A stretch of DNA of 64,000 bases. Source: Polytrichum commune (taxonomy: Eukaryota > Streptophyta > Polytrichopsida > Polytrichales > Polytrichaceae). Positions 11,176 through 60,961 of the stretch are shown piece after piece. Location: positions 54,803,169 through 54,867,168 of the forward strand of contig OX485806.1 in NCBI GenBank assembly GCA_950295325.1. Direction: 5' to 3'. The first letter of the stretch is position 1; each line of letters opens with the position of its first letter. The notes under the pieces were generated by a model. It ran no database searches. It was not told the origin of the DNA and was given only the letters and a program-made list of their open reading frames with translations. Position numbers and translations under genes: made by a program.

Positions 11176-11179
11176 TTTA

Positions 11180-18718: not shown

Positions 18719-18740
18719 AACCCCAATGAGTTACAAAATG

Positions 18741-33325: not shown

Positions 33326-33330
33326 TACTT

Positions 33331-35052: not shown

Positions 35053-35220
35053 ATGGAATCAATAAGCAAGAACTCATGTAGTAGTGTGGAGTCGACGGCA
35101 AGGACTCGCTTCACAAGAGGGATATCTTTGAAGGCATGCGTGGCCAAAGCGGCCGGGTGGACTTTAGAGAAGTACAAGGATGTGACATTACCCGAGATTA
35201 AGGAGTGTAAGAAGACATAG
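35053..35220 (+). CDS. Small LTR-embedded ORF, 55 aa (copy in LTR G)
   Basis: It runs from ATG to TAG inside the 3' part of the LTR in the sense direction. Its core, ESTARTRFTRGISLKACVAK followed by AAGWTLE, is nearly the same in the ORF of LTR H (60749-60961). Over the 28 aligned core codons about 13 differ only synonymously and about 4 change the residue, which suggests selection on the protein while the family was active. The antisense frame is also open in both copies but shows more residue changes. No known domain is recognised; the sequence is small, basic and contains one Trp and one Cys. Confidence 0.5.
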   Translation: MESISKNSCSSVESTARTRFTRGISLKACVAKAAGWTLEKYKDVTLPEIKECKKT

Positions 35221-36552
35221 TATAGACTTGGCTAAGTTGTGTATATTCCAACGATAGATTGGAATCATACATTGTGTTACAAAGAGAGAAATCTCTACAT
35301 GTCATTATAAACTTCTCCATTCGGGCTAGAACGAAATTGAAGGGTGGAGGCTTTTTGGTGACAGGTGGATTACCATGGGCTTAAAAAATGAGATGGTAAA
35401 AGAAAAGACCGACAACAATACAACGCCTTGCTTTTGGCAAGGTTCAACAATGTTTGGAGGAGTTGAGTTTGAAGCCAAAACATCGCCATAAGAGAACATT
35501 TGGCACTGAAATCTATTTGAGCATTATTGCTAATTATATTGATATTATTTGTCACCACATATGTCATTGTTTGATAGGGTTCTAGCTGCTTCTAAAGTTT
35601 CATTTTTCTTTACATTATGGAAGTTGTGGTTGGTTTTGGTGGGCACACACACAATTTGGGCCAAATTTTCATACGTTGACAAGCTTATCTAGATGCTCAA
35701 ATCTCATGTCACTATATAGTGTTTCTCATTAAATTCCTCAAAGATAGGTTTAACCATCTAGAAGTGCCCCTAATCTTGGTAGGCTCAAATGTTTGTGAAA
35801 TGTTTTACAGTATGGTTGGAGGAATGTTGCAGAATGAGCGATCATATGATGGTTGTGCTTCAATTGAGATTGTTGGTGCATTGGCAAGAATTGCAGAATT
35901 TGAATTTGAACTTAAAAGGCCATGTTATTCAAGAGCCCATAAAAAACAAACTCACATTTCGTTCGATCTTGAACTTAAGATTGGTGTCCCTCTTGCAGAT
36001 TTGAAGGATTATTCTAGTATTATAATTGAGGAACATATGGTGGCAGCCCTACATGGAGGCTTTGCTGAAGCTCAAATTACATGTGTAGCTCTAGGAATGA
36101 GACCAACTGAAATTGAACCTGAATGTTGGTGGATAGCTATTTGGGTACATAAGAGGTAGATGGAAACTCAAGTTTTTAAGGACATGAAAAAGGAGGACAC
36201 TTGTGATTTTCATCATACCACTGATCAATTTGATATGTCCTAAGATGATTAAACTGGTTCAAGTTCAAATTGTCCATCAGATTATGTTGACATCCATGAT
36301 GAACTAGATGTATCCATTTTGCAATTTGAATTAAGACACGTCTTGGATAGTATAGTTGATGAGCACGAAAAAATTTCTTTGGAACATTTTGTGGTGCCAT
36401 TTGTTTTTGTTGATGATTCCAAAATCTTTAAAAGTACCTTAGTCAATCAATTAAATGACAACCATAGGATGACTAGAATTAAATCTAGTATGCTATATAC
36501 CATGCTAAAGAAAATAATATCAAGAGCTGGTGATAATGGTTTTAGTTTGTGA

Positions 36553-37109
36553 TTGGGATGTGATTGTGTTGTGGTTTTTGTCAGTGAGGCAACAATTTTT
36601 TTTTTATAAATAAAGCCAAGAAAATCGAAATGATTGACCATTAAAACATGGTATTTAAGAAGAGTTTGTAGAATGCGTAGAAAAATTGTTAATAGTTGGT
36701 TGAAAATAAATAACCAATTGATTTGTTGGCTCGACCATCTCATATATAGATTGAATTGTGGTACCAAAACAATTATGGATCACTATGTACTTATCACTTG
36801 ATAGATCATATCATGATAGACTTGGAAACTATTATTGCACTAGCTACAATGACTTTTGTAGTAGAAAAACTTGTATGAATTACATCTTATGGATGAGAAA
36901 ATGTTTAACAATTTTGTCATTGATAAATAAGTACTTTTAAAGTAAAAACTTCAAGCCCATTTTTTAGACCATGTTTTTCATTGTGTAGGTTTAGGGTTAA
37001 GGGTTAGGGTTTAAGGTTTTGTTTTTCATTGTATATGTATGTTAGGTTTTTTGCTTTTTGAATTTATTTTGAACATGCATACATACATTAGGTTTCTTTT
37101 GTTATATAT
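36553..37109. other. AT-rich intergenic stretch with telomere-like motif
   Basis: No gene is seen. At about 36990-37017 there is a short degenerate run of plant-telomere-like units (TTTAGGG, TTAAGGG, TTAGGG, TTTAAGG). Confidence 0.5.
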
Positions 37110-37825
37110 GTATGTGTTTTTTTTAAGAAAGAAATGCGCAATGTGGTCCGGTTGCCGTAATAAAAATACAATTTTGCACCTTGGTGCGGAAATGCATTGT
37201 CATCTTTGTTTTGTTACAACACCATGGCAACATCCTCGCCTTGAGGTTTTTTTTTCTTGCATTTCAACAACTCGTGCATCAAACGTGTTGTCACGTAATC
37301 CATTGTAAGTTCTTTCATCGACATCGTCTTCATAGTTAGTAATTCAGTAATCAAACGATGTTGGTAAATTAATATCTTCGTCTCTCACGGGTACGTCCAA
37401 ACAATTGAGTTGATCCATGAGCACCTTAATCTTGTTAACATGCTCCAACAAGTCGTCGCCCTTTGCATCTTGCACGTGAAAAACTTACAACAAATGAAAA
37501 GAATGTTGGACAAATTCTTCATCTCGTGAATGTTATAAAGGGTCTTCTACGCCTTTGTAGGTCTTTTGCAACTCTTGATGTGCGGAAATTGGTTGTCTGC
37601 TAAGTTGACGCTAGTGATGGATATGGCCTTCCTAACACATCTTTGGTTATCCTTTAATACTTTGGAATTTGCATTGGAAGGTGGAGTTTCCTCAAATCTA
37701 TCCACAATATCCCAAAGATCCATGGATGCCAAGAACATTTTCATTTTGAATTTCCAAAGGTTAAGGCTTCTTCTATTAAACTTGCTAATGATTCTACTAG
37801 CCTCGCTCTCAAATAATGCCATCAT
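37110..37825 (-). pseudogene. Ty1/copia-type gag remnant
   Basis: On the minus strand the frame starts MMALFESEASRIISKFNRRS and has NLWKFKMKMFLASMDLWDIV, characteristic of the copia gag (UBN2-type) N-terminus. After a stop, shifted frames give LSNILFICCKFFTCKMQ, a DDLLEHVNKIK-like block and MKELTMDYVT. The end near 37140 has a decayed zinc-knuckle region. Several stops and shifts make it a pseudogene. No copia protease, integrase or RT follows. Confidence 0.7.
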
Positions 37826-38469
37826 ACGCTCAAATATACTTTCAAAACACTTAAACTAGTTTTTTGACTTACAATCAAATCCACACCAAATTAAAATATA
37901 ATTTTTTTTACACTTAAATCACTCAAATAAAATCTTCTTCAACTCAAATACCTTAAACTCTCAAATCATTCAATAAGATTTTTTACACCTCAAGAAAGTT
38001 TTAAAGACTCTCAAATTGTTCAAATAATATCTCCTTCACCTCAAATGTCTTATGCTCTCAAATTAATCAAGTTAGATCTTCTACACCTTGAGAAAGTGTT
38101 TATGACACTCAAATCCTTCAAATAAGATCTTCTTCAATTCAAATATGCCTTACGCTCTCAAAGAAATTTCTCAACACTCAAGCCTCTCAATTCATGTGCT
38201 ATTGGAATTTGTACACCTTCAAAGCTTTCAAAAAACCCTTAAACATTCAAAATATTCAAGTTAAATGCTTTCAACTCTCAAAAAACTAAAATCACATATT
38301 CTTGCATCAAACATACATTTAGGCAAAAGACAAAGAAATACTTACAACAATAAAATGCGCCTTCGTACACCTTCAACGCTCTAAAACTCCAACGCGCCAA
38401 ACTTTTTAGATCCATTTTGCAACCCTCAAAGCAATTAAATCTATAAGCACTTCACTTGCATGGTGGGCC
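37826..38469. other. Pyrimidine-rich CTCAAAT-type low-complexity stretch
   Basis: The plus strand repeats CTCAAAT and TCTTC-like words at irregular spacing. No gene is seen. It could be the leader of the copia remnant to its left. Confidence 0.5.
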
Positions 38470-41283
38470 TGTGGTGCTTTTGGGCACCCCCCTCCGAGGG
38501 AGCCTAAAAGTACCGCACAATCCCTTTGGTGAGGGTGGCCTGCCTTAGCAGGTGCCCAAGCCGAACCCGGTTGTTACGATATTTAATGGGTGTGTGGTGT
38601 TAGTGGAGGGATTTGGTAATCGCGTCGTATCCTTCCGATAGGTTGTGCCTATATATTAAGTGCCTAGGATAATTATCAAGTTTTCTAACCTAATGTCTAC
38701 TCTATCCTAGTCTACGCGCAGACGCACCAGCCTTGGGATCAAGGCAACCTAACCCTACTGGATGAAATAACCTTATTTTTTACCTTGGGCCACCTCTAAT
38801 TCTTTACTTCTTTTATATTAAATTATCTAAACAGGGGGACCTTAATTAAATCCCACCCTTTCAACCTTCATTATTAGTTTATGGTTAATTGAACAAAGCC
38901 TATATTACTAAGTTCATAAATTATGGCATCACCACCTACCTGTTTGATGCACGCCCTAACCCGAACCCTTCAAGGCCCTGTGCGGGTCTCTTGAAGGTTG
39001 ATTGATACTTACACCCTCCGATCTTTGTCATCGGAGGGGTAGTCCCAATCCTCCGAGTTAAGTTTCCAGTTGGTTTTTTGCCCACGGGGGTCGTACAAAT
39101 TGTGTTGGTTATTAATTAGTTTAACACGGTTTGACCACAAAAATTCAACTTGATGGGACTGGAAAATAAGGCAACATGTGTGTTCAACCTGTTGCACAAT
39201 CTTCAAGGGTTGGGGCCATTACCTCCAACCCTTGGGGCCAACAACATGATGGTGGTTTCGTGGGTCATTACTCCCACCTTACCACCTACAAACATACAGA
39301 GTGGTCATGCCGGTGATTAATCCGGCTTCACCACACACGAACGAGCTATGAATAAAAAGCTACTACCACAACATTTAACCGAGAGGCTCCGCACACATGG
39401 GAGTTGGACTTCCCCTCGGCGGCTAGGTGGGTGATGCCCCCCTAGCCTTACATGGATAGTTGGGTTGAGGTGAGAATATACCTTTGCCGCGCTCCCTCCA
39501 TTCCTAAATTGAAGGGTGTAGGGTTAAAATGCTTACCAATTGACTCCCATCTTGGCTTGGCGATGGTTGGTGCGGAACCCCTACTCCATTGCTCGGCCGC
39601 CCACAACACCAACTCGTACCCGCCACCTTTGGATGGACAAACCTCTTCTTGTAAGGCAGCAGACACCCCTTTGCTTAAACGGCCATAACTTTTGTCCAAA
39701 AGCTTCAATTGGAACAAGTATTAGTAATCTGGAAAGCTAACAACAAGAACTATTCCTCATCCAATTATCAAAGCAAATACATGTACCTTCTTAAAGATAT
39801 AAGCCTACAAAGTCAGCTCTTAGAATTCTAGAGGCAGCTGGGATACCTTCATTCAAACATCCATAACTTTTGCATATTAACTTAGATTCCAGCAAGCTTA
39901 GACTTTCTACAAACCTTAAAATCAGATCTACAACTATCCCAAATATCGAAACAACTCCATGATTCCTCTTGCAGGTATGAGCTTACAAAATCAGCTCTTA
40001 TATTTTAGGAGGCAACTGGGATACCTTTATTCAAACATCCATAACTTTCACTCCTTAAATCTGATTGTGACAAACTTATACTTTCTAGAAAAGCTAACAA
40101 CAAGAACTATAACACATTCAAATATCAAAGCAATTGGATTATTTCTCTTTTAGTTATGCGCATGCAAAGTTAGTACTTGTAGTTTGAGAGGCAGCTAGAA
40201 CACCTTCATTAAAACACTCATAACTTTCACAAATCAAATTAGATTCTAGCATGCTTATACATTCTAAAAAACTAACAACAAGACCTATAATATACTTAAA
40301 TACAAAAGAAACTGAATGACTTGTCTTTTAGTTATGCGTTTGCAAAGTCAGCGCTTGTAAATTAAGAGGCAGCTGAGACACCTTCACTCAAACACTCATA
40401 ACGGTTGCTCCCTAACTCTGATTCTAACAATCTTAGGCTTTTTGGAAAGCTAACATAAAGAGCTACATTCACTCAAAATCAGAAGGCTAAATTTTAATTT
40501 TTTGTGTGCACAACACATGCTTGAAAGTGGCATAGCAACTTAGGGGTGTGTTAAAAAACACACTACCTTCTCTCAAGAGTTCTAACTTAAGCCTATTGTG
40601 AATAAATGGGAATGGTTTTCTCCTTCTAACTACAATTCTAGAGGGCTTCGCTATGCAAAAAATGGAAAAAATTAGAGAGAAATTGAAAGGGGAAGAGGGG
40701 GTTTTATCATCCTTCAAAATGAAGGGTTGGACCCCTTCTCCCTTCCATTCACCGAGGGGTCCCGTTCCTTGAACGGTGGCAACCAAGCCCTCGGAGGTGA
40801 ATGGGGGTGAGGGGTGCCACCTCACACCCCACTTGTTCAAGCCCTTAGAAAAGCTTTTTTATTTCCATTTGGAATTCATTTTTGGTTGGCAAGGGTGGCA
40901 ACATGGCCCCCTTGCCTTAGTTGGCAAAATTCCTTACGCTCGTAGTTGTCACAATATTTTCTTTCTTGGCCGCTTTCGGAATTACCCTTGTTTTGCCGCC
41001 ACTTGACTTTCGCTTGCTTGATTTGGTTGTTCCTAACTTAACCTACCTACTAACTAGCCCACTACTTCACACTTCCTATTCGGGTAAAGGGCATTTCTCT
41101 TTTACCCTTTCGGTTTCTAATTTCTATTTGCCCAAGAGTTTAACCCAAGGGTAAAGCTCCTTTAGCCAACCTACCTTAATCTAAACGGTTTGTGCTAAAT
41201 TTCCCTATTATTCATCTAAGGGTTTTGCTAAAACACCTCAATTGTGAGCCAAATTGCCTTTGGGGGCAATTTTGACGCTCACA
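38470..41283. mobile_element. Long LTR-like element N, 2814 bp
   Basis: It begins TGTGGTGCTTTTGGGCACC and ends TTTTGACGCTCACA, with a near-perfect duplication (GGGCC 38465-38469, GAGCC 41284-41288). The right end resembles the GGGCTCACA end of LTR family 2. It has no coding region of its own; the short open stretches are unconvincing. It contains a 178-bp minisatellite. Confidence 0.6.
39660..40500. repeat. Minisatellite inside element N, 178-bp period
   Basis: CATAACT/CATAACG motifs at 39684, 39862, 40040, 40219 and 40397 are spaced 178, 178, 179 and 178 bp. Each unit also has AGGCAGCTGGGATACCTTCA or a variant just before the motif and a GCTAACAACAAGAACTA-like stretch after it. Confidence 0.85.
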
Positions 41284-41824
41284 GAGCCCATAACCTATTG
41301 GAATCAATAGGAGATAAGATTTCACAAGCATAAATACCTATACATAGGCATATGAAGAATGCTTGTAGTGAGATGATCACATGCACTCTTTGCTTATTCT
41401 TTTATTGTTTTTCTACTTGCCATTGGTTCATACATACAATATGGGATAATAGTCGTCCTTCTTCGGACTACCATTATAGCCATATTCTAACCTTATTCTT
41501 TCTCATGTTTCTTCCACTATATTTCTATAAACTACAAGAAATCTAATGCTCTACTTTCTACAACAAGATGGTTCGTTAGAAGATTTATATGTTAGAAAGA
41601 TATCCTTACCTCTATATGGTGGTATAGAAATCCATAATTAAGAACAAAACATACATGTAGAATGAGGAGACCAAAAAATAAATATCAAACCGATCATCCA
41701 GAGGCAAACATGTCACATACATATTCATTAAGGCAACAACATTGAAAAAACCAGCATGACAATGATCCCAAAACATTATAAATAACGTACATGGTTGATT
41801 GTGAAGATAAATCTAGTACAAAAA
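41284..41824. other. Non-coding stretch before the gypsy D element
   Basis: No feature is recognised. It ends in a short A-run at the LTR D boundary. Confidence 0.4.
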
Positions 41825-43727
41825 TGTCGCGCACCTCTCCATGTGGAGTGCCTGAAACACCATGGGCACAATGGGGACCCCGGAGTGACACCCGGGACTT
41901 GTGGCGCCGTTGGTGAGAGGGCCCAAGTGATCCTAGTGTAGGTGAGGGCCCCGGGCGTTGGGAACGCCTCCCACCCACGGAGACTAGGAGGCATGAAGGT
42001 AAGGCCATAAGCTATGCGTAGCACATAGCGTGGTGATTCTAGAAAGCTCAAGAACACCTCAATCGGAGATGTGAGCTAGGAGTTATGGCAATTTGAATGG
42101 GGCGCTGTCCCGGGACAGCCCCTTGGTACCAGAAGTGCGTGGGAGTGATTCCCGGGACTGTCAAGGTTCAAACAGGCATAAGTTCCTCAAGACTTGCTTG
42201 AATGGGGCAAGTGAGGTGTCCATCAGCATCGTCGTGAAGCGTAGATGAAGATTGAGTGGTTTCTTGATAACATCAGACATCATACAAGGAAGTTATGATG
42301 GTCTGAAGATGCTAGGGGCTTCAAAGCCCAGCAGCTAAAGGAAAATGTCTACTTGGCCCCAACTCTTCGTAGAGACACAAGAGGTTTCTTGACGGTGGGG
42401 TAGGGGCCCCGCGTAGAGTCCTAGAGGCTTATATGGGTGAGGTGGTGTGGCCTCACCCACCTGAGGCCGAACAGCACGGCCTCTATGGGCTTTGGCTGTC
42501 GCGCACCTCTCCATGAAGAGTGCCCGCAACACCATGGGCACAAGGGGGACCCCAGAGTGACACCCGGGACTTGTGGCACCATTGGTGAGAGGGCCCAAGT
42601 ACTCTTAGTGTGGATGAGGGCCCCGGGCGTTGAGAACGCCTCTCACCCACGGGGACTAAGAGTCATGAGGGTAAGGCCATAAGTTATGAGTAGCTTATGG
42701 CGGTGGAATTCTAGAATGCTAAGGAACACCTCAATCGGAGGTGCTAGCTAGGAGATATGGCAATTTGAGTGGGGCGCTGTCCCGGGACAGCACCCTGGGA
42801 CAGTAGTGACCTGGGACTGCCAAGGTTTGAAGAGCCATTACTTCCTCAATACTTTCTTGAATGGGGCAAGTGAGGGGTCCATCGGTATCTACGCAAAGAG
42901 TAGGTGACGATAGAGTGGTTGCTTGAGAGCATCAGACATCATATGTAGAAGTTATGGTGGTCTGAAGCTGCTGGGAGGTTCCAGCCCCAGCGGCTAGGGG
43001 AAAATGTCTACTTGGCCCCAACCCTTGTAGAGAGACAAAAGGATGCTTGAAGGTGGGGTAGGGGCCCCGCCCAAAGTCCTAGAGGCTTACATGGGTGAGG
43101 CGGCTTAGCCGACCGACCCCCCCGAAGCATACTTGGCAATGTGCTCCGGGTAGTTGTAGTGTTGTTTTGGCGACACAATGATCAACTCAAGAGTGGACTT
43201 CCATCCATGGAAGTCCACCTTAGCCATTGGCTACCTACTAAGGGGAGAGTCCCGAATGCATGTGTAGGAGGGTTTGGTGACCAAGCCATGAGCTTGAAGG
43301 TCCGCGGTTTTGGGAGCTAACCATGCATGTGCGTGGGATGTGCAGGTTAGCGCTCGTGGCACTTGCTAGGTTGGAAAGGCAGTCAAGCTAAGTGAAGGAA
43401 AACTAGAAAGGGTTGCGACATTGGCCCATTGTGAGGCCATAGTTGCCTAGTATGCTTCGGGTTGTTGTAGTGTTGCTCCGGCAATGCGATGATCAACATA
43501 GGATTGGGCTTCCATGGATGGAAGTCCACATCGAAGAAATGGGTTACCGATTAAGAGGTGAGTCCCGAAAGCAAAGTAGGAGGGTTGGTTCCCTCCTATG
43601 AACTATAAGGTCCGGGGGAGGAGGAGCTAACCATTAGCATGGCGGAATGCGAAGGGTTAGCGCTCATAACCTTTGCTAGAAACAAAAATGGGAAAGATTG
43701 TTAAGGGGGCTAGCAAGGGTTGCGACA
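41825..43727 (+). mobile_element. 5' LTR D (long subfamily), interrupted by LTR E
   Basis: It runs TGTCGCGCACC (41825) to GGTTGCGACA (43727); without LTR E and its duplication it is 974 bp, like A and C. A TATA-like CTTATATGG lies at 42429-42437. The palindrome CTGTCCCGGGACAG is at 42105-42118. Confidence 0.9.
42497..43420 (+). mobile_element. Solo LTR E (short subfamily), 924 bp, nested in LTR D
   Basis: It runs TGTCGCGCACC to GGTTGCGACA, with a perfect TTGGC duplication (42492-42496 and 43421-43425). It is close to copy B. The palindrome CTGTCCCGGGACAG is at 42777-42790. Its place inside D shows that the short subfamily moved after D was inserted. Confidence 0.93.
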
Positions 43728-43729
43728 CG

Positions 43730-43751
43730 TGGTATTAGAGCAGGGTTCCAA
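43730..43751 (+). promoter_or_regulatory. Primer binding site of element D (tRNA-iMet type)
   Basis: TGGTATTAGAGCAGGGTTCC starts three bases after the LTR end. It differs by one base from the TGGTATCAGAGC start common in plant retroelements primed by initiator methionine tRNA. Confidence 0.85.
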
Positions 43752-43789
43752 TATTTGAGCTATCATTTGGAAGGAGGCAGGGCTATCAT

Positions 43790-45110
43790 AAATGCGGGTT
43801 GTGATGGTGAGCCCAAGGTTTCCAAAAGGTTGTGAGGCTCAAATTGAAACAAGGATCATGTGCAAATGGAGTTTGACCATACCACCGGTTCTTATGACAA
43901 TGGTGGGCATGAGGGTGGATTTGGTAAGGAAAATGGAGGAGTGCTTTGAAAGGGCTCCCGCAAACCTCAAAAAGTATTTGGGGCCTAGAATACCGAATGC
44001 ATCCAAAACCTTGGAGGGCATTAATGTTGGATTGAAATTCCAATTCAAAATGCTTAGAAGGTAGTGATGTTGGAATGAATTTGGTGGAAATGACGCATCT
44101 AGGCCTCTTAAGGCGTGTATGCGCAAATTTCACACCCAAATGAATTGTACATCTTAGATGAACAAACTTTCTAAGAAACGCATCATTTTAGGTGGATTTC
44201 AAAAGCGGGTGGTGAATACCATGTTCAAATTTCCAATGTTTATTAAGGTCCTGGCGGGGATCATCAATATTGCCAAGAGCATTAAAGCGATGACTTCGAG
44301 GAAAAAAAAACTAGCGATGCCTTACACCAATGGGCATTGAAGGGAGATAGAAACCAAGCCAAATCATAGTGTTGCCGCGGACGGAATGTTAAAGGTTGGT
44401 TTTGCGGACCAAACCAACTCATGTTGTGGCCACGAATCGAATGTAAGACGATGGCTTTGTGGCCAAGGCTAGTAGCCTTAAGCCGAGGCCAAGTCTTTTG
44501 TACCTTGAGGCTAAAATGAATGGGAGAAATGTCTCAAGGTTGACAAAGAGGCTACCACTCCTTCTTGAGCCCAAAACTCACAAGGGAGTTGGGACTTGCC
44601 TATCGGTAGAGTGGGCAAGCCCACGAAGGTGTGGTTTGGAAAGGGCGAACCGCATGAGACAAAGGAGGCCACAATGCATGTAACCTTTCAATGTGGGACA
44701 TTGGATTTTTGTCAAAATTTCACGCCATGTGAAATAGATAAAATGCATGTCATTGTGAAGGTCGTCTTCTTTGAAACTCACATGATAGATGTGAGGTGCA
44801 AGCCGGTGTGCTTGCGGTGCATTGTGATGTGTCATAATGACAAAGAGTTGAAGTTCAAATTAACAAGGACTCCTATGGTAGGAGGACCCAAGTTGAATTT
44901 GGTCTTAATGGACCAAATGAAAAATGGAAAACATAATGGTCGTGGTTCGTTTGGAGCAACTCCAAGGAACTTATGGGGAGGCTAGGAAAAATGGGCCTCC
45001 CCTAAACCACATTGGTGGGATGTTGGTGAGATACAAGATGTATTTACCAATGTGTTGCCAAAAAATTACCGCCAAGGAGTGTAAAACAACTTTGCTCAAC
45101 GAGAGATTGA
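43790..45110 (+). pseudogene. Element D gag and protease remnants
   Basis: 43790-44340 is a degraded gag-like part with many frame changes (for example LVRKMEECFERAPANLKKYL). From 44596, 129 open codons include VTFQCGTLDFCQNFTPCEID and LKFKLTRTPMVGGPKLNLV, arranged like the end of a gypsy aspartic protease with its C-terminal extension. The usual active-site triad is not seen. The next part (45030-45070) reads like the protein just before RT, after which the RT core is missing. Confidence 0.5.
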
Positions 45111-45296
45111 GTTCTTGAGGTATGTGGTGACAAAGGAAGTTGGTGGACGAACATGAAAAATGTCAAGGCAATCCAAAAAGAGAATTGGCTCTTGACGCAA
45201 GAAAAGGGCTTAGGTCATTTGTTAGCCTAGCCAACTAGTACCACCACTTCATTCGAGGTTTTTCTAAGGTTGCTAGGACCTTAGTCAACTTGTTGA

Positions 45297-50118: not shown

Positions 50119-50847
50119 TTGTTGATGTCGTTCATAGCAGTCAACAAGTTTGGAATGTAATTAGGTTGGTGTGCCAAAATAATAGAATATACAAAGACAT
50201 GACGTTCACAATCTTCAGTATGTACGCTGTCAATGTAATTTTTCCAAGTGAAAAAATTGTGATTACGATCCCATATAAAGAACATTTTGTTCTTCAATGA
50301 TGTAAATGAAGGGTCTGAGGCCAATTAAGATTCAAACACGGCATTGGTTTGTGTCCAATTTGGGCTTCAAGATGCACAAACCTCATCATCCACAAATTGA
50401 AAGTTTCCCTTAGAATCAGTGGTCGATATGTAAAATACACGGTCACCATTATAATAACCATTGAAGAAATAAGCCTCCAATTTAGTAATGTCAACATTTA
50501 AAGCAGGATGCACAAAAGCCATAAGAACCATGCGACATAAATGTACAAACAAACGAGATTTGGGTCCAGCACGGATTAAATAAATTATGGCAGTACAATT
50601 GACCTTTCGTTTGTCCGTAAGCTCCCACACTTTTTTTTGATAGGTTTTATTATCACCATCATTGTCTTCATCGAAGTCAAAATCATTGAGGGGTTCATAT
50701 AATTTTTTTCTTCTTCTTATTATTAAGATTTGATGAGATGTTATAATCATGATAAACTTGTGCGGATGGACGATCTTAAGTTGAATTTTTTATGGAATCA
50801 TCATCCGTGAAATTAGAAATTGTTTTCTCCACATGCATTGTTTGGTC
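50119..50847 (-). pseudogene. Second exon of the methyltransferase-like gene
   Basis: The acceptor CATTTAG|GACC starts at 50847. The frame matches exon 1 in phase but shifts in an A-run near 50710. It continues with FVHLCRMVLMAFVHPALNVD and YYNGDRVFYISTTDSKG, passes a TGA and a TAA, and then has MFFIWDRNHNF and PNYIPNLLTAMNDINK. The donor AACAA|GTAATG joins in frame to the acceptor TTTTAG|GTCG at 50017. The surviving splice signals show that this was a spliced gene. Confidence 0.45.
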
Positions 50848-50949
50848 CTAAATGCAAACAATGAAGCAAGTTTTAGAAATCGTTTTGATGAACTAAGTTT
50901 TAGAAATGTCAATAAATATTTGAAGGTAAAAATTACAAAAGAAGAAGAT

Positions 50950-51360
50950 GTAAAGAAAGAAAAATACATGTAGCAACAACAACTCCGATACCAACACTAG
51001 CGAAAGAATAACACCAACAACACAAACAAAGTAGCAACAGCAGCACCGGCTCAAGTACAAGAACAACAGCAGAAACAAAGCCGGAACAACAATACCAGCT
51101 CTAGCACCAGCAGCAAAATAACAGCACCAATAGCAATAATAAAGCAGCAACACCAGCACCAACACCAGGAGAAGAACAACATCAATAACAACAACAAATA
51201 AGTAACTAAACCCAGTAACACCAACACCAGTAGTAGTAGCACTAGAAGTAGTATCAGAAACACTAGAAGTAGTAGCAACACCAGTAGCAATACATGACCA
51301 GAACAATACAAGAAGAACAACAATAATAGCAACAACAACAACAACAACACACAACCACCA
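50950..51360. repeat. Imperfect CAA/CAG/AGC trinucleotide-rich tract
   Basis: The plus strand is rich in AACAACAAC, AGCAGCA and CACCAGCA words with little other content. The Cys/Val/Leu-rich open frames read from the minus strand are artefacts of this composition. It lies in what would be the first intron of the methyltransferase-like gene. Confidence 0.75.
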
Positions 51361-51435
51361 ACAAAAGGAACAAGAGAAAAAAATTCTAAGGTGTGATTGT
51401 ATGATTAGGGTGGCGGCTCACACTCAATAACTGGG

Positions 51436-52030
51436 GCAGATCATGTGCGTTAACGCACGGGGTCTTTGTGCCTTGCTGGAGGCCTTGTAAAGTTGCACGC
51501 ATAGACCCTTTGCGCTAACGCACAGGGTCTGTTCGCCAAACTACATACGTTTTAAAGGTTGCCAGCGCAGACCATGTGCGTTAACGCACAGGGTTTATAT
51601 CAGAGATTTAAAAAGTCTGGATTTGGTAGATTTTCCAAAAATTGTAAAATCAATAAATAATACAAATGATGCCTGAAAAAAATTTAAATTTAAATATCCG
51701 TAGCTATTATATTTCTTTAATATTTTTTCTTATTTGAAATCATTTCCTTATTCATTCTTCTATATATTTCATTATTTTTGGCCACCTCGTATATTTTGAG
51801 TTTGCGGGAACAAAAAATTTTATTACTATTTTTTATGATTTTCTAGCCATATATTGCATTAATATTTCAGCACACATATTCTTGATTTTCTGCATACTAA
51901 CCCCATTTTTGCCAAATTCCTTGCTCTAACCCTCTATACGTCGTTTCAAATTCTTTCAATAGGTATTTTTATATTTTGTCGCTCTTCAAGTCGTTGGCAC
52001 ATACCTTGTGCGTTAACGCATATGGTTCAC
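51436..52030. repeat. Four copies of a TGCGTTAACGCA palindrome
   Basis: TGCGTTAACGCA occurs at 51446-51457, 51577-51588 and 52009-52020, and TGCGCTAACGCA at 51511-51522. The first three are spaced 65-66 bp and sit in a larger near-palindrome with arms AGACC(A/C)TG and CAGGGTCT. They lie upstream of MULE-3 and inside the divergent gene. They may be protein-binding sites. Confidence 0.75.
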
Positions 52031-52150
52031 TTCAATAACATTTTCATCATTTTAAACTGTTCAACAATTTGTACTTAAATATAAATGTCATATTCTACGT
52101 TATTTTCATTTAATGCACTATCAAATTATATGAAAGTAAAGTTGACTTAC

Positions 52151-52450
52151 CTTTTTGTTTGTTTTGTTTTTTAAACCCATCTTCATTTCCAACTCCGATA
52201 TACGATCATCTGCATATTTTTTGCTTTTTGCACCTTCATCATCCTTCACTGCCATTGTCGATATTGTATCAAAATTCAATGGCTTCACGGTTTCTTTTAT
52301 TGTACTCAAAAGGATATTTTTCCCTTCCCTACTTGCATTCTTCTTTCCTACACTTAGTTTGAACCTCTCTTTTTCAAAAGTAAAATACAAAGTTTTCCTA
52401 CGTCTTCTTTTCTGCCTCACTAGTGTTCTCTCTACAACCTCCACCATCAT
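52151..52450 (-). pseudogene. Basic first exon of the divergent gene next to MULE-3
   Basis: It starts with ATG at 52450 (MMVEVVERTLVRQKRRRRKT), has further Lys-rich parts (FKLSVGKKNASREGKN) and ends KMGLKNKTNKK at a textbook donor AAG|GTAAGT (52151/52150). The basic stretch looks like a nuclear-localisation signal. It is arranged like the basic ORF divergent from MULE-2 (26901-27299), though the two sequences are not obviously alignable. Confidence 0.5.
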
Positions 52451-53082
52451 TGGTGTCTATGATATGTCCTCTACCACTCTACTTTCATATATTCTTCTAG
52501 TGTTTATATCTCACATAAACATGGTGCATATTACGATCATCCGTGTTGCAATAGGCGTCCAATGACCGAGTTATTTCAACGCATCTTTCATTATATTTTT
52601 ATTATTATATCCGCCAAATTTCTTTGATATCCCAACTTTCTACATCCATTTTGTTCTATTTATAATGGCCAATTATTTAATTTCCTAGCCAAATTTAATT
52701 GTTCATGCATCTACATCCAACATATACAGTCACATTTTAAAACTCTGCCAATTTGTTTACAATTTGACGCCATTTTCTCCATGATATCCGTACCCGCATT
52801 TCTCCCATGTGATAATCTTATATTACACAACTCCTTTGTGGGTTCAAATTTTCTATGGCTTAGTTTCCAAAGGAGATATTTTTTAGGATCTGGTTTAGGA
52901 TTTTATGCTTTGCTTGCAAATATTTTTTACTACTATTATGATATGTCTCCTTCTATACTATTAGATGCTATGGTATCACATGTTTTCATTTCCATCCATT
53001 ATTATATTGTACATTAGTCAATACGAAAATGACATTGATCCAATATTATTGTGATGTGTTGTTCATCTATTATTTGTTCTCC
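52451..53082. promoter_or_regulatory. Intergenic region between the divergent gene and MULE-3
   Basis: The 632 bp of AT-rich sequence separates the two start codons. No clear gene is present. It is the likely place of both promoters, but no single element stands out. Confidence 0.35.
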
Positions 53083-56000
53083 ATGGCTACCATTAGAGCT
53101 CACAGATCTTTTGTTCCCTTAATTTTGCCACTTCAAGATGATGGTCATGTGGATGTCTCAGAGGATTTACTTAGTTTGAGATTCAACCTCCAGATAGGAA
53201 CTATGTATTTAGAGCAGGAGATGTACTCTGCAGATGGAGAGGTGTATGAAACGATTCTAGTTCAAAAAAACAAAAATGAGGTTGGTTTTATGTGGATCTT
53301 ACGACATGGTTCATTTAGGGTGATAGGTATTTTTGAGTCTCAGATGTAAGCTTCAACTATCATATTGACGAATGAATTCGGTCATCCACAGTTCAAATTC
53401 CCTCTGTCGCATTTGTTAAATTGGAACCCATTGATGACAGTGTGTTTGTCCTATCAAATTCAGAAGATGATATTTCTGCATCTGTTGATTTTTCAAACAC
53501 ATCGTCGTTTTCATTTAAAAGTGTTCATTCCAATTCTTCACAACTTCCTATACATGTAGCCAAATTCCCAAGCGGTCATTTGTACAAATGGTTGGTTCCC
53601 CATATCTCACCTTCTCAACGTCCTCCACTACACCCTTCACCTTCATCTATATGGTTGACTATTGTTGATGCCTTGAAGCTTACAAAGTCAAGAAAAATAT
53701 CAAAATCAGATCTCGCATCCATTGATTTTGACAATGTAGATGTTCGTGATGTCAAGTACTTACCATCTTCTTTTAATGGCGACGTTTTGTTTTTCTTGCC
53801 CAATGTGGCACTTAGAGTGTCAAGTAGGTATGGATGCTCAATAGACAACATGGACAAGATGTGCGACGGTCACCCTTGGTGCACCACCAAAACCACCAAA
53901 CCCTTCCGGCAGTCTACTTGTGCAGGTCATCTTTAATATCCTAATGACTATTGTGATTGCATGCATCGCAATGGGGGTCTCCGGAACAACATTGAATGGA
54001 CTGGTTCAACTCCTCTCCCATTTGTTGTGGGTAATGTTCCCCCCCTGCTAGGTCCGTTATTGAGTGTAAGATATGTCATTCCACACTTGTGTGCATTGCT
54101 TTGTGTCATGCTCGAATAATATACATCCACTTCACATCTGTTGGAATGTTCAGGGCTTACATTCATCTTGGTGTATATGATCATCATTTGGCCAATGGCA
54201 CATGTCGTGAATCATTGGACATGACATACCAGTGTGTTGCAAATGAAGTATTGAAAACACTCACAACAAAAAATTCAGCCATAGTTGTGGCAGCGAGCAA
54301 ACAATCTTTGGCCAATTATCTTTTCAAATCTCCCGCTAGTGGCGAAAACCATCACTTGGCTGGTTCATCTTTAGAGGTGGTCATGGACAAATTCAACACT
54401 CTTGCGTCCCCAAATTGTCATAACTTTGTATCTGGATCAAAACGTTTTTTGCGTAGTGGAATGGGAACTATGGATACTACCATGACACTTAAAGACCACT
54501 CTGCTTTTAAGTTCGTCCATGGTAGTCGGTTCCCAAGGCAATCAAAAGATAAATTGTTTGTTTTTAAGATGTTTGTAGACCTTCCAAGTAGTGGTGTGGA
54601 ACTTGTGAAGATGATGCAAGTCGGGGAATATGGAGAATTCATGGATTATGTTTGACCATGTCAAACGTTTAAAAGACTGGACGACAATGATTTTCCATGT
54701 GTACGACAGTCGATACTGTAAAGTATTAACCATTACGTGTTGTTACATGCAATCTGAAGATGGTGTAGCACAAATTCTTTTTAAAGAAAATTTGATTTTT
54801 ATCATGGAAAAAATGGTGTACCAAACGTAAATTTCAAAGGGTTTATAGCTGACAGTGCTCAAATTAATTGGAATGCAGTGAGGGCGATTTACAAGGATGG
54901 TGACCCAAGTCTACCCATGGTTGCACGTGAGCGTACATGTCTTTTCCATTGGATTGCGAGCTTGAATAAGGTGACCCAAAAGTTTATCAAACCATCCTTG
55001 TAGTTTCAACACAAACAAATATGCAAGGATTACAAAGACGAGAAAATAATAGACAATGCCGAGACTAAGAATCATGTGATTCGTTCTTGGTGGTTGTTAT
55101 CCGGAGCTGCTTCGGAAGAAGGCATCATTGGCCTTTCAGAGTGGTTGGATTTTTGGCAATTTTGTTATAGACAATGGGGTGGTCATATGCTATTTGTAAG
55201 TACATATCAAAATTTATTATTCAATGTCATTCAATTTTCTTCCACTGTTATATATATCTTATAATTTTCTTATCCTTATATTTGTGTGTTGTTCATAGAA
55301 TATGACAATAAAAGAACGTGCAAAAATGCCAACATGCAACCTTGTAGAGACTGTACACAACAAATGGCTCCAACAGTCCAGCAACAAGATGACTTGTTTA
55401 TATGAAGCTACAATGGACAACATGATCTGTGCCTTCATGAAAATTGCAAATTACCGGACATGGTTGAAAGAAGGGTCTGATGGTAAAGGTCCTAATTCGG
55501 CATCCTTGAAATTCAAAGCGGCTGCCAAGTGTGGAGATCCAAAAATGTTGGTTGATGCCATGAAGTCTTACCCAGGGGCAAAAGACGTCAACACTAAAGA
55601 TTGTACATTGGAAGGGTCAGAGCTCTTTGGTTCCACCAAACGCAAATTCAACCTACCACCATGTGTTGATTGTGACTCTCATCGACCCGACAAAGTGAAC
55701 CATTCCATTCCTCGTCCCAACACCCGAGCAACTCGTCAACGCATAGAATAATCGTTGAGTTCCGCAATCATGGTGTACCTCATACTACATATGTGTTAGA
55801 GACTGATTGTTTTGCGTCATCCAACTTAGCCAAATGATGTTGGGCACTACAGGCCATTACAGGGACTATGTGCAATGCCAAAGTCAGGACTGTGAAACAT
55901 AGGACCCATGCTTGAACATACAAAGGGCTCAAGAAGGAATTTCGCTCCCCATCAATGTGGAGTATGAATTTTGGTTTTGCCCTAACGACATCAAGCGTTG

Positions 56001-56579
56001 TGTGAGTGGCAGTAAGAAAAAATATGTGTTAAATTGGCCTATAGTACCCAACACGTGGCCGGTGAAGATAGGTACCAATCTATCAAGAGAGAAGGTTTTG
56101 GCACTTGAAGATGTTGGATTTCAACTACAACAGAGGAAAGCATTGTCCCCTCGTTGTAGGCTTTCAACAGTCGCAACTCTCCCCATCCCTCGCTCGCATT
56201 TTTGTATGCCACCAAACCTAGACGTCCACCTTACATTCAGGTTTGGGAAGATAGTGCGTCGTAATCCAACAACACCGCTGTCACTACCATTTCATATCCG
56301 GGCTTTGGAGTGATAATTAACATTGTCTCCAAACAGGATATCACATACCATGTCATAATTGGCGACATCTTGCATTGCATATGCCCGGATTTCACGAAAA
56401 TGTCCTCTCATGCATTGGGAAAGATAGGAAAATGGGTGTATTATAAACATCTTTATTATGTATTTAGATTTTTATGCAAGGTGGATTACGAGAGTGACAA
56501 GTTCATTCATGCACCTACATATACCTATAATGAGGTCATGCGACTACTTGAACTTGCTGGTATTGTAGAATGTGAGTAG
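53083..56579 (+). pseudogene. MULE-3 transposase (zinc finger - MULE core - SWIM), decayed
   Basis: ATG at 53083 (MATIRAHRSFVPLILPL). The N-terminal part continues over a stop and shift (SIDNMDKMCDGHPWCTTKTT, then STCAGHL and a TAA near 53935). The cysteine region CKICHSTLVCIALCHARIIY follows near 54070, then IHLGVYDHH, VVAASKQSLANYL, and the catalytic core with FHVYDSRY (54695), FIADSAQINWNAV (54840) and CLFHW. After the intron come NLVETVHNKWLQQS, SELFGSTKRKF, DIKRCVSG and a SWIM finger CICPDF...YYKHLYYVF in which the expected third Cys is Tyr. Frameshifts occur near 53350, 54060, 54650 and 54825, with stops at 55003 and 55749. It is the most diverged of the three copies. Confidence 0.75.
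55196..55298 (+). other. Intron in MULE-3 transposase (GT-AG, 103 bp)
   Basis: The donor TTT|GTAAGT follows QWGGHMLF and the acceptor GTTCATAG precedes NMTIKERAKMPTCNL. It is at the same position and phase as in MULE-1 and MULE-2. Confidence 0.85.
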
Positions 56580-56828
56580 TATTGCAAGTGTTTTATTAAG
56601 CAACATATATTTGAATGTCAATAAATGATATGGTTTGGTTTGGATTATTATAAAAATATTAGCGATGGACTGAAAGTATTTCAAATGATCCATGGTAATA
56701 CATTTCATTCATTTTTTCTTCATTTAAAATCTTTACAATTGAAAATATTCAATTCATGTAGTACTATATTGAGTTCATGAACCCTAAATCCGTGCACCTT
56801 TACTAATTTTGAATTCATTACTCATGTG
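56580..56828 (+). other. MULE-3 3' flank
   Basis: AT-rich; no gene is seen between the transposase stop and the degenerate terminal repeats. Confidence 0.4.
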
Positions 56829-56912
56829 TTACCGCTCATTGCTCATGTGTTACTGCTCACTGCTCGTATCATATTGCTCACCGCTTAGTGCTTAATGCTC
56901 ATCGCTCATAAG
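56829..56912 (+). repeat. Degenerate CGCTCA terminal repeats beside MULE-3
   Basis: ACCGCTCATTGCTCATG, ACTGCTCACTGCTCG and TTGCTCACCGCTTAG, then CATCGCTCATAAG, resemble the CGCTCAC ends next to MULE-1 and MULE-2 and lie at the matching 3' side. They are more diverged, as is the gene. Confidence 0.5.
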
Positions 56913-57909
56913 ATAGCTTCCCTCGACAAAGCACCAAAAAAATTTAAGGAATTATAAATTTTTAAGAACCACGGATAGTAGGTTCTCATATTATTGGACC
57001 AACCCATATTAATGGTCAAAGTGGAGACAAAGGTTAGGGAACAACGAGTGGAAGAAAATAAGATTTGGGTAATTTGGACCAAGAGAAAATCAAAGATGAT
57101 GAACATGATTTGGTAATTGGTACTCCTTTCAAGACATATGTATTGATAACAAAGTCTACCAAAGGAAAAAAAATACTCTTACATCTCGAAAGCATAAAGC
57201 CAAAGCAAAGGAGAATTTTTTTCAATAACACTTAAACGATAAATGACCTCCAAATATGAAGTTGTAAACTAAAAATTTGAAAAAAAATTCAAACATATTC
57301 AAGACTAGAAAGGTCAAATGACTTAGATACAAATTTTTTTTTTAAAAAAACCTCTCAATAGAGAAGATCTTGAAAAACTAAATATATACTTTGACAAAAG
57401 ATTCAAGCAAGTTAAAACCCTAAGAGAAAATCTCAATCAAATTAACGCTCAGGGCAACACTAGAAATAATTTAATCAAACTGGCAATCCTTCTATAGAAA
57501 ACAAAGGTTCTTTTACCTACATCTAAAGGTTAGTTGTCATAGATACTTAATATAGTAATTCAACAATGTATTTACGACCAATCAAGACGATACCAATGTG
57601 ATTAAAATACAATTTATTTCTAGTGTTGAGGTTGTAATCACTTTAATCAAAAGTTGGTGAGGGTTTATTGAGGTGTGTGTCTCTGATGCATTTTTTTATC
57701 CTGGTTGTATATAAAATTAAGTGTTACTAAGACCTAAGATGAAGTAAAAATTTCTAATCGAGTAAGGTTGAACATGCTCTTGTCTCAAGATATCAAAAAT
57801 ACTAATAAGATAGGCCACAACATCATAAGAGAAAACATGAACTACGATATCTATATGGACCTTTCCAAAGGGGTATAAGGCTAGGAAGTGAGTGAAAGAA
57901 GGGAGACAC
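56913..57909. other. AT-rich stretch without recognised feature
   Basis: About 1 kb in which the open frames are short and unconvincing. Nothing specific is seen. Confidence 0.4.
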
Positions 57910-59972
57910 TGTAGATAGTTTTTGAGGTTGGGTTCCAATTAAGAAAACCACAAAAGGAAGACTAAATGAGTGTCAGGTTTCACATCTAGGGACCACCATT
58001 AAGTTAATTGATAGATCACAGGGGAAACAAGATGAACTAAAGACAAAAAAACCCTAGGAAAATAACTTCTGAAGGGGTTTTAGAATTTATTTAATTAAGG
58101 TTAATGGTCACTCAAGGCAGTACATGCAATTGCTCAGTCACTCCCTTACAACCCACTCTCGTCAGTAGCATCCCTTTTGTTATGCTTTTGCAATACAAAG
58201 AGTCACAGTCAGCAATGGTCTTTTGAGTACACCATAGTTTCATACACACAAGGTTAAAGTTTTTTTGTTTTAGTCCATAGTCTCTTCCAACAGTATCCAG
58301 TGACCATAGGCCATACCACATGTTAGATGACACTACCACTATATCTCCATTTACATTCCTATAATTGCAATATTGATTGATTAAAATTGATGGTATGATA
58401 TTCAATCTTCTTTTATCTCTTCAGTATTGGCAAAACAACGTTTAACTTAATGTTTTTTAAATTAAGTTATTATAATTTGCAAAAGTCTAATTACAAGTGA
58501 CACGAGCTAAGTGAACCGGAACTAAGCGATCGAGTCTAATCCCTAGGACCATAGTCTAGAGAGCGTCGACCATAGTCTTAGTAATCAGTCACTAGTAACC
58601 AGTTCCAAGTAATGAGTCTCAGAGGGCAGGCCATAGTCTTAGTAGCAGTCACAAGTAAGCGTCAAGTTCTCGAAGACATACCTGGCCTCTTAGCAGGCCC
58701 ACCAAACGTTATGGGATATGTGGTTGACTCCTTCACGACGCAGTCCACTTCCATGTCTCCGCGGCTTCAATCCTTGCATAGTAGTACTCATGTCTCAGAT
58801 TCCTTTTAAATTTCCCACCAAATGTAGTCAGTTCCCTTGAGATTATCTAGTGGTAACAAATTTCCCATGGTGGTGGGCAAAGGATCATAGATATGAGGCG
58901 TTCGTGTGAGGGTGACTTGAACACTATAAATCCCAGTTTCATCGAATCAATTTGTTCAACATCTTCTCCTCTCACACCCAAGGGACTATGGTCAATTACC
59001 AGGGTTACTCTTGGACGCAATATCCAAGTACATTCTTCCGAATACAAATATGTCCCGCCTGAATTAGCTTGCTGCACGAAAAGTAGGACAACAGAATTCT
59101 TCTCTCTTCACGAGAGGTAGTGACCACCATTCTCTGCTCTTTGAATATCCACTACTAAAAATACAACATCTCATTACACAAAGTGCACATCATCCTTTCC
59201 CAGGGATCACGAACTACTATCGAACACCGTCACTTGAATCGATTTACTTTCACAGTAATACAGATGATCAATAAGAATACTTAGAATCCATAGTATCTTA
59301 AAATTTTTCCTCTTTACAAACACGACTCACAAATCCCACACTTATATTATAATAAGGGACATAGTTATTACTCTCTTCCTGAGAGGATAATTAAGCTCTC
59401 CGATTGATATTTTGAGTCGTACTGGACTCTTCCTTCAACACAACCAAACTACCTTTAACTCACTTAAACCACAAGAACACTAAATCAAGATTGTGGACCA
59501 TGCACTCATCTTAGGGAAAGTAAATCTTAAAATATTATATCATATAAAAGTTTTGATACATCAAAAGGGCTTCACACCCAGGATAAACAACAAACTATAG
59601 TTTCACTTCTCAACAGAGAGGAAGGAGAGCTACCCTCTTCACGAGCGGTAGTGAGAATGATCCCTCCCTCTCTCTCTTTTCTTATGGTCATGGCCAATTT
59701 TTCCTACACACAAAAAATAACCGTCTTCCCAACCAATGCATCTATTCATAACCAGATGCCTAAGTTCTTCCAATCAATCCCAAGACTACAGCCCTTCCCA
59801 GCCGACTCCTCAGCTATGGTCTATGGTCAGGTTAATTGGGAATAGTCATTTCCGCTATATCTTTACTAATTTTCCATTTCTTCACTATTCTAAAGTTATA
59901 ACCTTACTTCTGACCTTAAACCACACTAAATTTCAAAAGTAAGTCTAAGTTGTCCAAAAAAAACGTCTCACA
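57910..59972. mobile_element. LTR M (LTR family 3, like L), about 2063 bp
   Basis: It starts TGTAGATAGTTTTTGAGG and follows LTR L closely over the first 250 bp (GGGTTCCAATTAAGAAAACC, CAGTACATGCAATTG). It is again similar in parts up to the end CGTCTCACA. A one-mismatch duplication (GACAC 57905-57909, AACAC 59973-59977) fits these limits. It is shorter than L through internal deletions. No coding region is seen. Confidence 0.6.
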
Positions 59973-60545
59973 AACACATTTCATCTTATTACTACCTGAG
60001 TTTGTGGAAACAACCTGGCCTTTGAGCCCATTTGAATTAAATTTTCAAGCAAAGATTGTATCTCAATATTTTTGAATGCATAGTTGCAAATCAATTGTCT
60101 GTGCTCCAAGTTATTTAAATTTATCTAGAGTGATTAAACTGGAATACAAAGAATTTTGTTTAATTTTGGTGTTGAAAGGATTGGATTATGGAATAATTTG
60201 TGGAGTTAGCAAGGAATTATTCTTTGGATTTGATTGTGAGTTTATGTGTTGGAATTTTCATATTAAAAATATAATCTTTTGGGTTGTGAATTGATTAAGT
60301 TACCACTGCATGCCAAGCTATGGTCTAGAATTTAAAAGAGGTTGATAGATTTCCGCGTTTGTGGGCCAAGCCAAAGAGGTTGTGTTGGTTTTGGAAGATT
60401 GATGATCTCAAAAGTTATTTTTACTTCTGAATGAATATAAGGCTAGCTCATCTATCCACCCCCATTATGCTTCAAGCCATAGTCTTCTAAATGGGAGGTA
60501 TTGGTGTAACCTTGGATGCAATGAGGCCATGTGAATAACCGCCCT
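59973..60545. other. Stretch without recognised feature
   Basis: AT-rich sequence between LTR M and LTR H. Nothing is recognised; a short open frame at 60076-60294 has no supporting evidence. Confidence 0.4.
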
Positions 60546-60748
60546 TGTGAGGCCAAACCCCCCACCCTTAAGCGTCCGTAGTCCGAGTAGTGGGTTTGGG
60601 CTCACATTCCTCCGCGGTATTGGATTTGGACTTGGATGAGTCCATAGTGCAAGGTTCACCCTTCAAGTGGTCTTGGATTTAACTGGAATTTCACTTTTAA
60701 CAACTCAATGTACGATTTCAATACGTATGTGGAGAATGCACAAGTTAA

Positions 60749-60961
60749 CTATGTTATTTTAACCTCCTTATGCTCGGGTGCTATTTTGTCTTTGTTTGCT
60801 TCTAACGTCCATCCGGCTGCTTTAGCTACACAAGCCCTTAAGGATATCCCTCTCCTAAATGGAGTCCGTGCCGTTGACTCTATACTACCACTTGAACTAT
60901 CACTTGTGTATTCCGTATCGCTACTATAAGAGGTATCACTTGGTGTCTCCATACCGTACAT
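60749..60961 (-). CDS. Small LTR-embedded ORF, 70 aa (copy in LTR H)
   Basis: ATG at 60961 (MYGMETPSDTSYSSDTEYTS), then a Ser-rich segment and the conserved core ESTARTPFRRGISLRACVAK followed by AAGWTLE, ending TAG at 60749. It sits in the sense direction near the 3' end of the LTR, exactly as in LTR G. The N-terminus is longer than in G and acidic/Ser-rich. The function is unknown. Possibly it is the end of a fused or relocated retroelement protein, or a peptide produced from LTR-driven transcripts. Confidence 0.5.
   Translation of the reverse strand: MYGMETPSDTSYSSDTEYTSDSSSGSIESTARTPFRRGISLRACVAKAAGWTLEANKDKIAPEHKEVKIT

Follow-up and report, generated by a model that had tools for sequence, protein, structure and literature searches.

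The window examined here, a stretch of 64,000 nucleotides from Polytrichum commune (assembly GCA_950295325.1, contig OX485806.1, positions 54,803,169 to 54,867,168 of the forward strand), contains two solo long terminal repeats (LTRs), G and H, which belong to a single clade of Ty3/gypsy retrotransposons. Both are complete, and each carries a small open reading frame (ORF) near its 3' end that runs in the sense direction from an ATG to a stop codon and comprises 55 codons in G and 70 codons in H (Table 1). A previous inspection of the letters of the window (hereafter the original prediction) had described these two ORFs and their position near the LTR 3' ends, and both observations were borne out, except that the intervals it designated as LTRs delimit only the ORFs, with the actual LTRs extending beyond them on either side. 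Comparison of genomic copies shows that the frame is kept and, as judged from its codons, selected as a sense-strand protein in many LTR families, with a strength similar to that observed for pol, and we infer that its product is a selected microprotein.

When aligned by eye over 28 codons (from ESTART to LEK/A), the ORFs of G and H differ by synonymous changes only in 13 codons and by residue changes in four, a recount that reproduces the approximate figures given originally. Sequences of this kind are abundant in the genome. In the 408-Mb assembly (64 contigs), a pattern representing the core peptide ACVAKAAGWT with every synonymous codon yielded 945 exact matches, whereas a reversed control yielded none, so that the core cannot be a product of chance; a hand count of the first 100 of these matches revealed 21 synonymous spellings of the core. 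A looser pattern, in which all third positions were free and up to two mismatches were tolerated, produced 1642 matches, again with none in the control, and among the 100 matches listed, which had no mismatch at the fixed positions, only one third base changed the sense (Cys to Trp). The H core itself has 396 matches with at most two mismatches. DNA searches with G and H returned 204 and 431 candidates, respectively, the best 40 of which were scored in each case and showed 96-100% identity for G and 100% throughout for H. Within the window, a scan for further cores with at least 8 of the 19 template residues detected none besides those of G and H.

For closer analysis, we examined 82 loci, comprising the two window copies, 20 loci with different core spellings and LTRs with two types of 3' end, 41 of the T-end and 19 of the H-end type. 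The first 20 (L005-L024) represent 20 of the 21 spellings among the first 100 pattern matches and are biased towards the exact core. The LTRs were obtained with an LTR-end pattern that detected 2571 ends, of which 100 were listed, all without mismatch at the fixed positions, a choice that favours young copies; by hand count, GGTGGTGGG terminates 51 of these listed ends (T-end) and GGTGGGGGG the other 49 (H-end). The T-end loci (L025-L064 and L083), 41 of the 43 remaining ends of this type, were sampled without regard to the ORF. The 19 H-end loci were picked from about 25 because no exact core match adjoined them, and they are thus uninformative on the frequency with which the ORF is lost. A core was scored as present if it contained at least 12 of the 19 template residues, a threshold not reached by 24 of the 82 loci, namely L033, five T-end loci with a replaced core and 18 of the 19 H-end loci. 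The selection figures given below refer to a single genome and, apart from the two window copies, to copies on contig C1.

The core was present in 58 of the 82 loci, in 52 different spellings that encode 29 different peptides, and the frame was intact from ATG to stop in 56 of these 58 cases, the exceptions being a locus that has lost the ATG (L044) and another with an internal stop (L060). Among the T-end LTRs, 35 of 41 carry the core and 33 of these 35 an intact ORF; in L033, two core codons were lost in frame and the frame has stayed open. Random stops and frameshifts across copies, named in the original prediction as an outcome that would speak against a selected peptide, are at odds with these counts. 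The +1 and +2 frames are closed in all 56 intact ORFs, whose products are 51-74 amino acids (aa) long in 55 cases. Their core follows the consensus RG(I/M/L)SLRACVAKAAGWTLEK, and an alignment of 26 sequences identified M1, R21, S24, L25, C28, G34, W35, T36 and E38 as invariant. The distance from the core to the stop codon is 15 codons in 37 of the 56 ORFs, even where the sequence of the tail differs, and 12-18 codons in 54 of them, the other values observed being 12, 13, 17, 18, 28 and 42 codons. In the 34 intact ORFs sampled by LTR ends, the stop lies 59-255 bases before the end of the LTR. The N-terminus of the H ORF is not of the commoner type, indicating that this part was exchanged without disturbing the reading frame of the core.

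The variation among the 52 spellings follows the codon structure of the frame, the mean entropy being 0.25 bits at first, 0.24 at second and 1.08 at third codon positions, and this contrast between codon positions was reached by none of 20,000 column permutations (51 spellings without a stop). The ratio of nonsynonymous to synonymous differences per site (pN/pS, calculated after Nei and Gojobori) was 0.13 for the sense frame, 0.25 for the antisense frame sharing its third positions and above 1.6 for the other four frames. For the 31 spellings sampled by LTR ends, the core ratio was 0.18 (codon bootstrap 0.10-0.27) and that of the antisense shadow 0.30, results that support the proposal of a selected peptide inside an LTR; a ratio near 1 in many copies, the second outcome anticipated as contrary evidence, was not observed, the core values being 0.13-0.18. 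The same measure gave 0.12 for a piece of pol compared between two elements. A direct comparison between one H core and the core adjoining the second of these elements, which is less strict than the family-wide ratio, revealed 10 synonymous changes per 13.7 sites and 6 residue-changing ones per 43.3 sites. In the flanks of the intact ORFs, the ratios are 0.50-0.58 for the N-terminal and 0.60-0.76 for the C-terminal part (with 0.43-0.76 given as the overall range) and thus high relative to the core, so that strong constraint is limited to about 19 residues. The original notion of a conserved peptide therefore holds for the core, whereas the terminal parts are only weakly constrained. Core ratios were higher in the closest pairs (0.26, at most 8% apart) than in distant ones (0.12), as expected of inserted copies that decay.

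The original prediction had also cautioned that the opposite strand contains an open frame whose third positions coincide with those of the sense frame, and this frame is indeed open over the core in all 52 haplotypes, a property that follows from the absence of Tyr, His and Gln among the sense residues. To separate the two strands, each possible third-position change was classed by its effect in the sense and antisense frames. Of the changes that alter the sense frame and are silent in antisense, only one of 14 possible was seen (Ile to Met, 11 haplotypes), compared with seven of 13 that are silent in the sense frame and alter the antisense one (49 haplotype counts). Moreover, the antisense frame is interrupted by stops in 39 of the 56 whole ORFs. 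Judging from these substitutions, the coding strand is the sense strand, for which the original prediction had noted fewer residue changes.

Table 1. Positions of the LTRs, their small ORFs and associated features within the 64,000-nucleotide window.
Feature	Position	Strand	Description and basis
Solo LTR G	33687..35363	+	TGTGAG...GTGACA, 1677 bp; target-site duplication GGTGG/GGTGG; read directly
Solo LTR H	60546..62756	-	TGTGAG...CTCACA, 2211 bp; target-site duplication AGGGC/AGGGC
Small ORF of G	35053..35220	+	ATG to stop, 55 aa
Small ORF of H	60749..60961	-	ATG to stop, 70 aa; 67 aa counted from the second ATG
Conserved core of G, RGISLKACVAKAAGWTLEK	35116..35172	+	Detected by window scan with 18 of 19 template residues matching; conserved in the family
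Conserved core of H, RGISLRACVAKAAGWTLEA	60797..60853	-	Window scan; family conservation
Stretch of small-ORF peptide, ACVAKAAGWTLEK			
Stem-loop at 3' end of LTR G	35300..35363	+	Consensus fold, 8 sequences
Stem-loop at 3' end of LTR H	60546..60606	-	Consensus fold, 8 sequences
Relic of the more frequent N-terminal sequence (MENVEHSRNGKTKEAKTKGAR...), located ahead of the current H start	60995..61156	-	ORF list compared with other families
Inverted repeat of the AAGTGTT/AACACTT type ahead of the H ORF	61111..61129	-	Alignment; common to many LTR families
Shadow ORF antisense to that of G; not regarded as a gene	34962..35177	-	ORF list and strand tests
Shadow ORF antisense to that of H; not regarded as a gene	60708..60929	+	ORF list and strand tests

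The assignment of G and H to the Ty3/gypsy group is based on their TG...CA ends and 5-bp target duplications and, in related elements, on the presence of a primer-binding site (PBS) next to the 5' LTR and on the domain order. An H-type element on contig C1 has two LTRs that are 99.95% identical over 1982 compared bases (the 3' LTR measuring 2152 bp), a PBS-like sequence, TGGTGCGTCCGCCGGGAG, that starts a few bases past the 5' LTR, and a leader of about 0.9 kb between the LTR end and gag's own ATG. Its gag-pol frame, read in two pieces that are both open, encodes gag, protease, reverse transcriptase, RNase H and integrase domains and terminates about 60 bases ahead of the 3' LTR. The Pfam matches comprise Retrotrans_gag and Asp_protease_2 in the first piece (L002), followed by RVT_1, RT_RNaseH, Integrase_H2C2 and rve in the second (L003), with no chromodomain family among the matches of either piece. 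In a second element (L089/L090, adjoining LTR L064), gag-pol shares 77-80% DNA identity with that of H, and its gag frame is interrupted; the small ORF thus occurs across families whose gag-pol genes are only about 77-80% identical in DNA. Among the relatives of G, one copy (L091) has ends identical to those of LTR G with GGTCT on both sides, and another (L094/L095) contains a decayed gag-pol relative behind the same kind of PBS. A further G-family copy with the PBS of the clade (L092/L093, C6:33053300-33059970) showed no gag-pol similarity in the pieces read and is perhaps non-autonomous or interrupted.

The window also contains a decayed third gypsy element of the same clade (about 5438-11241, minus strand; LTR end at 11180) with the same kind of PBS, and LTR H includes tandem repeats of 17, 46 and 63 bases (61242-61540) whose number varies among copies. 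Large tandem arrays with units of about 80 and 86 bases occupy positions 18654-20067 and 27616-33389 of the window. Elsewhere in the genome, 14 matches to light-harvesting (Lhcb-like) genes, equal in score, lie within about 95 kb (C5:1751760-1846160). Of the PDB chains of ordinary length, the moss entries 8htu and 7xqp come nearest to a light-harvesting protein encoded in this genome, and a chain of 620 residues, 9vfj, has a higher score obtained over two stretches.

On the DNA, the small ORF sits between the probable promoter part of the LTR and the PBS and gag. In many families, its ATG is preceded by an inverted repeat of the form AAGTGTT(T)nAACACTT, which a simple expression finds in 31 of the 48 loci that belong to neither the G nor the H family; an AATAAA-like run lies between this repeat and the ORF start in 16 of the 31 loci, and no ATG intervenes in 24 of them. 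Judging from this arrangement, the inverted repeat is probably located in the repeat (R) region of the LTR, and the small ORF probably lies in R and the adjoining unique region (U5), where it would be one of the first cistrons on the genomic RNA. With starts as assigned, the start context has a G at +4 in 44 of 48 cases, whereas only 16 of the 48 show a purine at -3, a combination compatible with leaky scanning. In most T-end LTRs, the ORF is followed by 115-136 bases that end in a stem-loop, with the stem beginning about 50-70 nucleotides (nt) past the stop codon, and then by the PBS, the leader and gag. This stem-loop, enclosed by the terminal TGTGA/TCACA repeat, shows paired changes at 4 of its 18 pairs in eight sequences.

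The leader contains additional conserved features. The donor-like sequence GGTAAGT and the acceptor-like sequence GCAGGTTCT are conserved in four leaders (L001/L002, L087, L089 and the one at about 10089-11188 of the window, minus strand), which suggests that they may flank an intron, and in the same leaders gag is preceded by a short stem, GACACTCACC..GGGGTGAGTCTC, possibly a packaging-type hairpin. The position of GGTAAGT, past the ORF stop and beyond the LTR, led us to reject a fusion of the small ORF to gag by splicing; splicing could shorten the leader but not join the two frames. Likewise, the ORF is not the start of gag as in the yeast element Ty1, since its frame terminates within the LTR and gag begins at a separate ATG.

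The explanation we favour, with a probability of roughly 0.45, is that this Ty3/gypsy clade carries a separate microprotein gene in the 3' part of its LTR, which would serve as an early cistron and provide an accessory factor in trans. Situated downstream of the probable promoter and poly(A) part and upstream of the PBS and gag-pol, the small ORF would be translated by scanning ribosomes, some of which would pass its AUG. The product, perhaps forming a short helix over the core, would then assist the element in trans, a mode of action that would let deletion derivatives without the ORF keep spreading beside their intact relatives. The fuller version of this proposal, in which the microprotein is needed in trans, solo LTRs represent mobile copies of its gene and ORF-less derivatives behave as parasites, is put forward more tentatively.

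A number of observations weigh against this explanation. Five T-end loci (L025, L030, L041, L055 and L058) have a replaced core and have kept a related tail. The peptide has no Pfam match above the cut-off, the best one being to SLBB (E 0.011, 16 bits compared with a cut-off of 27), no sequence relative in the PDB up to an E-value of 10, and no confirmed relative among 111 pattern stretches in viral contigs. Its structure model is poor (mean predicted local distance difference test score, pLDDT, of 54), with a single helix comprising residues 25-32. Intervening ATGs are present between the inverted repeat and the ORF in 7 of 31 loci (three to four in five of them, one in the other two), and in H, three ATGs lie in this interval, so that the ORF is not the first. 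The pN/pS values of 0.13 and 0.18 reported for the core are descriptive, because pairwise comparisons count shared history repeatedly. Finally, two H-derived deletions that remove the ORF, A and B, are represented by 298 and 192 junction matches, respectively, with at most two mismatches. As for the SLBB match, it spans only 28 residues and falls below the threshold, and we dismissed membership in this family as a chance result.

The ORF-less lineages are particularly relevant to the mode of action. Deletion A is common to 11 of the 19 H-end loci and the larger deletion B to six, with the class of some loci assigned from ORF remnants; one locus is intact (L076) and another retains half of the core (L071). 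Among the 100 junction matches listed per deletion, many form same-orientation pairs with a spacing of about 7.4-9.2 kb. Such pairs would arise if the loss is present in both LTRs of an element that transposed afterwards, and the deletion derivatives thus seem to have spread after losing the ORF. The gag-pol pieces of one deletion-B element share 99.5-99.7% identity with their counterparts in the H element, although the open frame of this copy does not begin until within gag. The spread of these lineages and the existence of the replaced-core type indicate that the ORF is not strictly needed in cis, which fits either a trans-acting product supplied by other elements or an attenuating upstream ORF (uORF) whose loss raises expression. 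Between the two, we lean, narrowly, towards the trans-acting product. Two putative LTR pairs at element spacing, C1:925459/934368 (L071 and L072) and C1:13850395/13859770 (L077 and a core match), combine an LTR carrying deletion A with one whose ORF is different or intact. Such combinations point to exchange between elements by recombination or gene conversion, unless the two LTRs are neighbours by chance.

The attenuating alternative deserves serious consideration, even if it appears less probable than a trans-acting factor. It holds that the small ORF is a conserved-peptide uORF whose peptide, while still nascent, influences ribosomes in cis and thereby sets the output of gag-pol or the RNA destined for packaging. 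The position of the ORF ahead of gag-pol is as this model would have it, the prevailing core-to-stop distance is retained in spite of differing tails, and a loss that raised gag-pol output could by itself favour deletion lineages. However, the most conserved part is central rather than C-terminal, the core-to-stop distance also takes a range of other values, and in the H leader the start of gag is preceded by 12 other ATGs, an obstacle unless the leader is spliced.

It is unlikely that the ORF is a former coding sequence, such as an exon acquired from the host or an ancient gag extension, which now evolves neutrally and displays inherited conservation. The loss of the ORF in spreading lineages and the raised core ratio in the closest pairs would agree with such a scenario. 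However, lineages with recent copies, exemplified by the near-identical LTRs of the H element, keep an intact frame, the ratios between families are as low as that of pol, and the stop codon is kept within a narrow distance of the core in nearly all ORFs. In addition, an origin from the gag-pol region of the same element was rejected, as the best blastp hit against its gag-pol pieces had an E-value of 0.34. A selected antisense frame with the sense frame as its shadow is very improbable: its uninterrupted passage over the core and its low ratio would be compatible with selection, but the ratio exceeds that of the sense frame in both samples, the strand-separating substitutions favour the sense frame, most of the whole ORFs close it, and the lack of stops over the core is explained by the sense residues. 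Equally remote is the idea that this segment is conserved at the RNA or DNA level (for instance as a packaging signal, small interfering RNA target or protein-binding site) and only incidentally looks like a coding sequence. The stem-loop in another section of the LTR does look conserved in this way; for the core, we dismissed the idea on the basis of the three-base periodicity, which, like the free four-fold sites and the near-fixed first and second positions, is not expected of such a signal.

Known systems offer partial parallels. Conserved-peptide uORFs (CPuORFs) of plant mRNAs are likewise short, peptide-conserved ORFs, and they lie ahead of a main ORF, a position on the RNA that is presumed from the DNA for the small ORF; the core shares with them a peptide under purifying selection. 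Here, however, the ORF resides in a retrotransposon LTR, and its conserved block is central. An encoding within the LTR is also seen for the superantigen (Sag) of mouse mammary tumour virus (MMTV), an animal retrovirus, and for similar LTR-encoded retroviral proteins, but Sag is much larger, and the small ORF has no relative in Pfam, the PDB or the viral contigs. In Ty1, the Gag frame begins in the 5' LTR and thus places coding sequence in a transcribed LTR end, whereas the frame described here ends inside the LTR and is separate from gag-pol. Short ORFs (sORFs) that mediate ribosome shunting are not known to be selected for their peptide sequence, and their stop codon lies close ahead of a large stem. 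The small ORF departs from this pattern in both respects, having a selected peptide and, in most T-end LTRs, a stem in the folded LTR end that is about 50-70 nt away from the stop. Such sORFs serve ribosome shunting in the leaders of plant pararetroviruses (PMC5902531) and resemble the present case as short ORFs in the long leader of a reverse-transcribing element. The Retrosat2, RIRE3 and RIRE8 elements of grasses have long LTRs with the terminal repeats TGTCACACCC-GGGCGTGACA and contain an ORF0 upstream of the gag-pol ORF (PMC3485330). The likeness consists in an extra ORF ahead of gag-pol in plant elements with long LTRs, but ORF0 is described there by its position upstream of gag-pol and not as part of the LTR, and it evolves faster than ORF1 (nonsynonymous divergence, Ka, of 0.2574 compared with 0.0783; PMC3485330), whereas the core described here is constrained like pol. 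Open-access titles and the openings of abstracts contained no report of a selected ORF within plant LTRs, a negative that speaks weakly for a true absence. CPuORFs and the retroviral proteins encoded in LTRs are parallels in kind only.

In plant retrotransposons, the LTR is regarded as control sequence, and it is usually masked prior to the annotation of genes or small ORFs. A protein-selected ORF whose core occurs 945 times in one genome shows that a class of microprotein genes can be missed by this practice. The small ORF may also offer a handle on how gypsy elements divide their genomic RNA between translation and packaging, and near-identical elements with and without it provide a natural comparison that is ready to use. 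Moreover, solo LTRs spread a ready-made small ORF that the host could adopt. If the proposed explanation is true, each LTR, including the solo ones, would be a mobile copy of a microprotein gene, and the ORF-less derivatives would parasitise intact elements.

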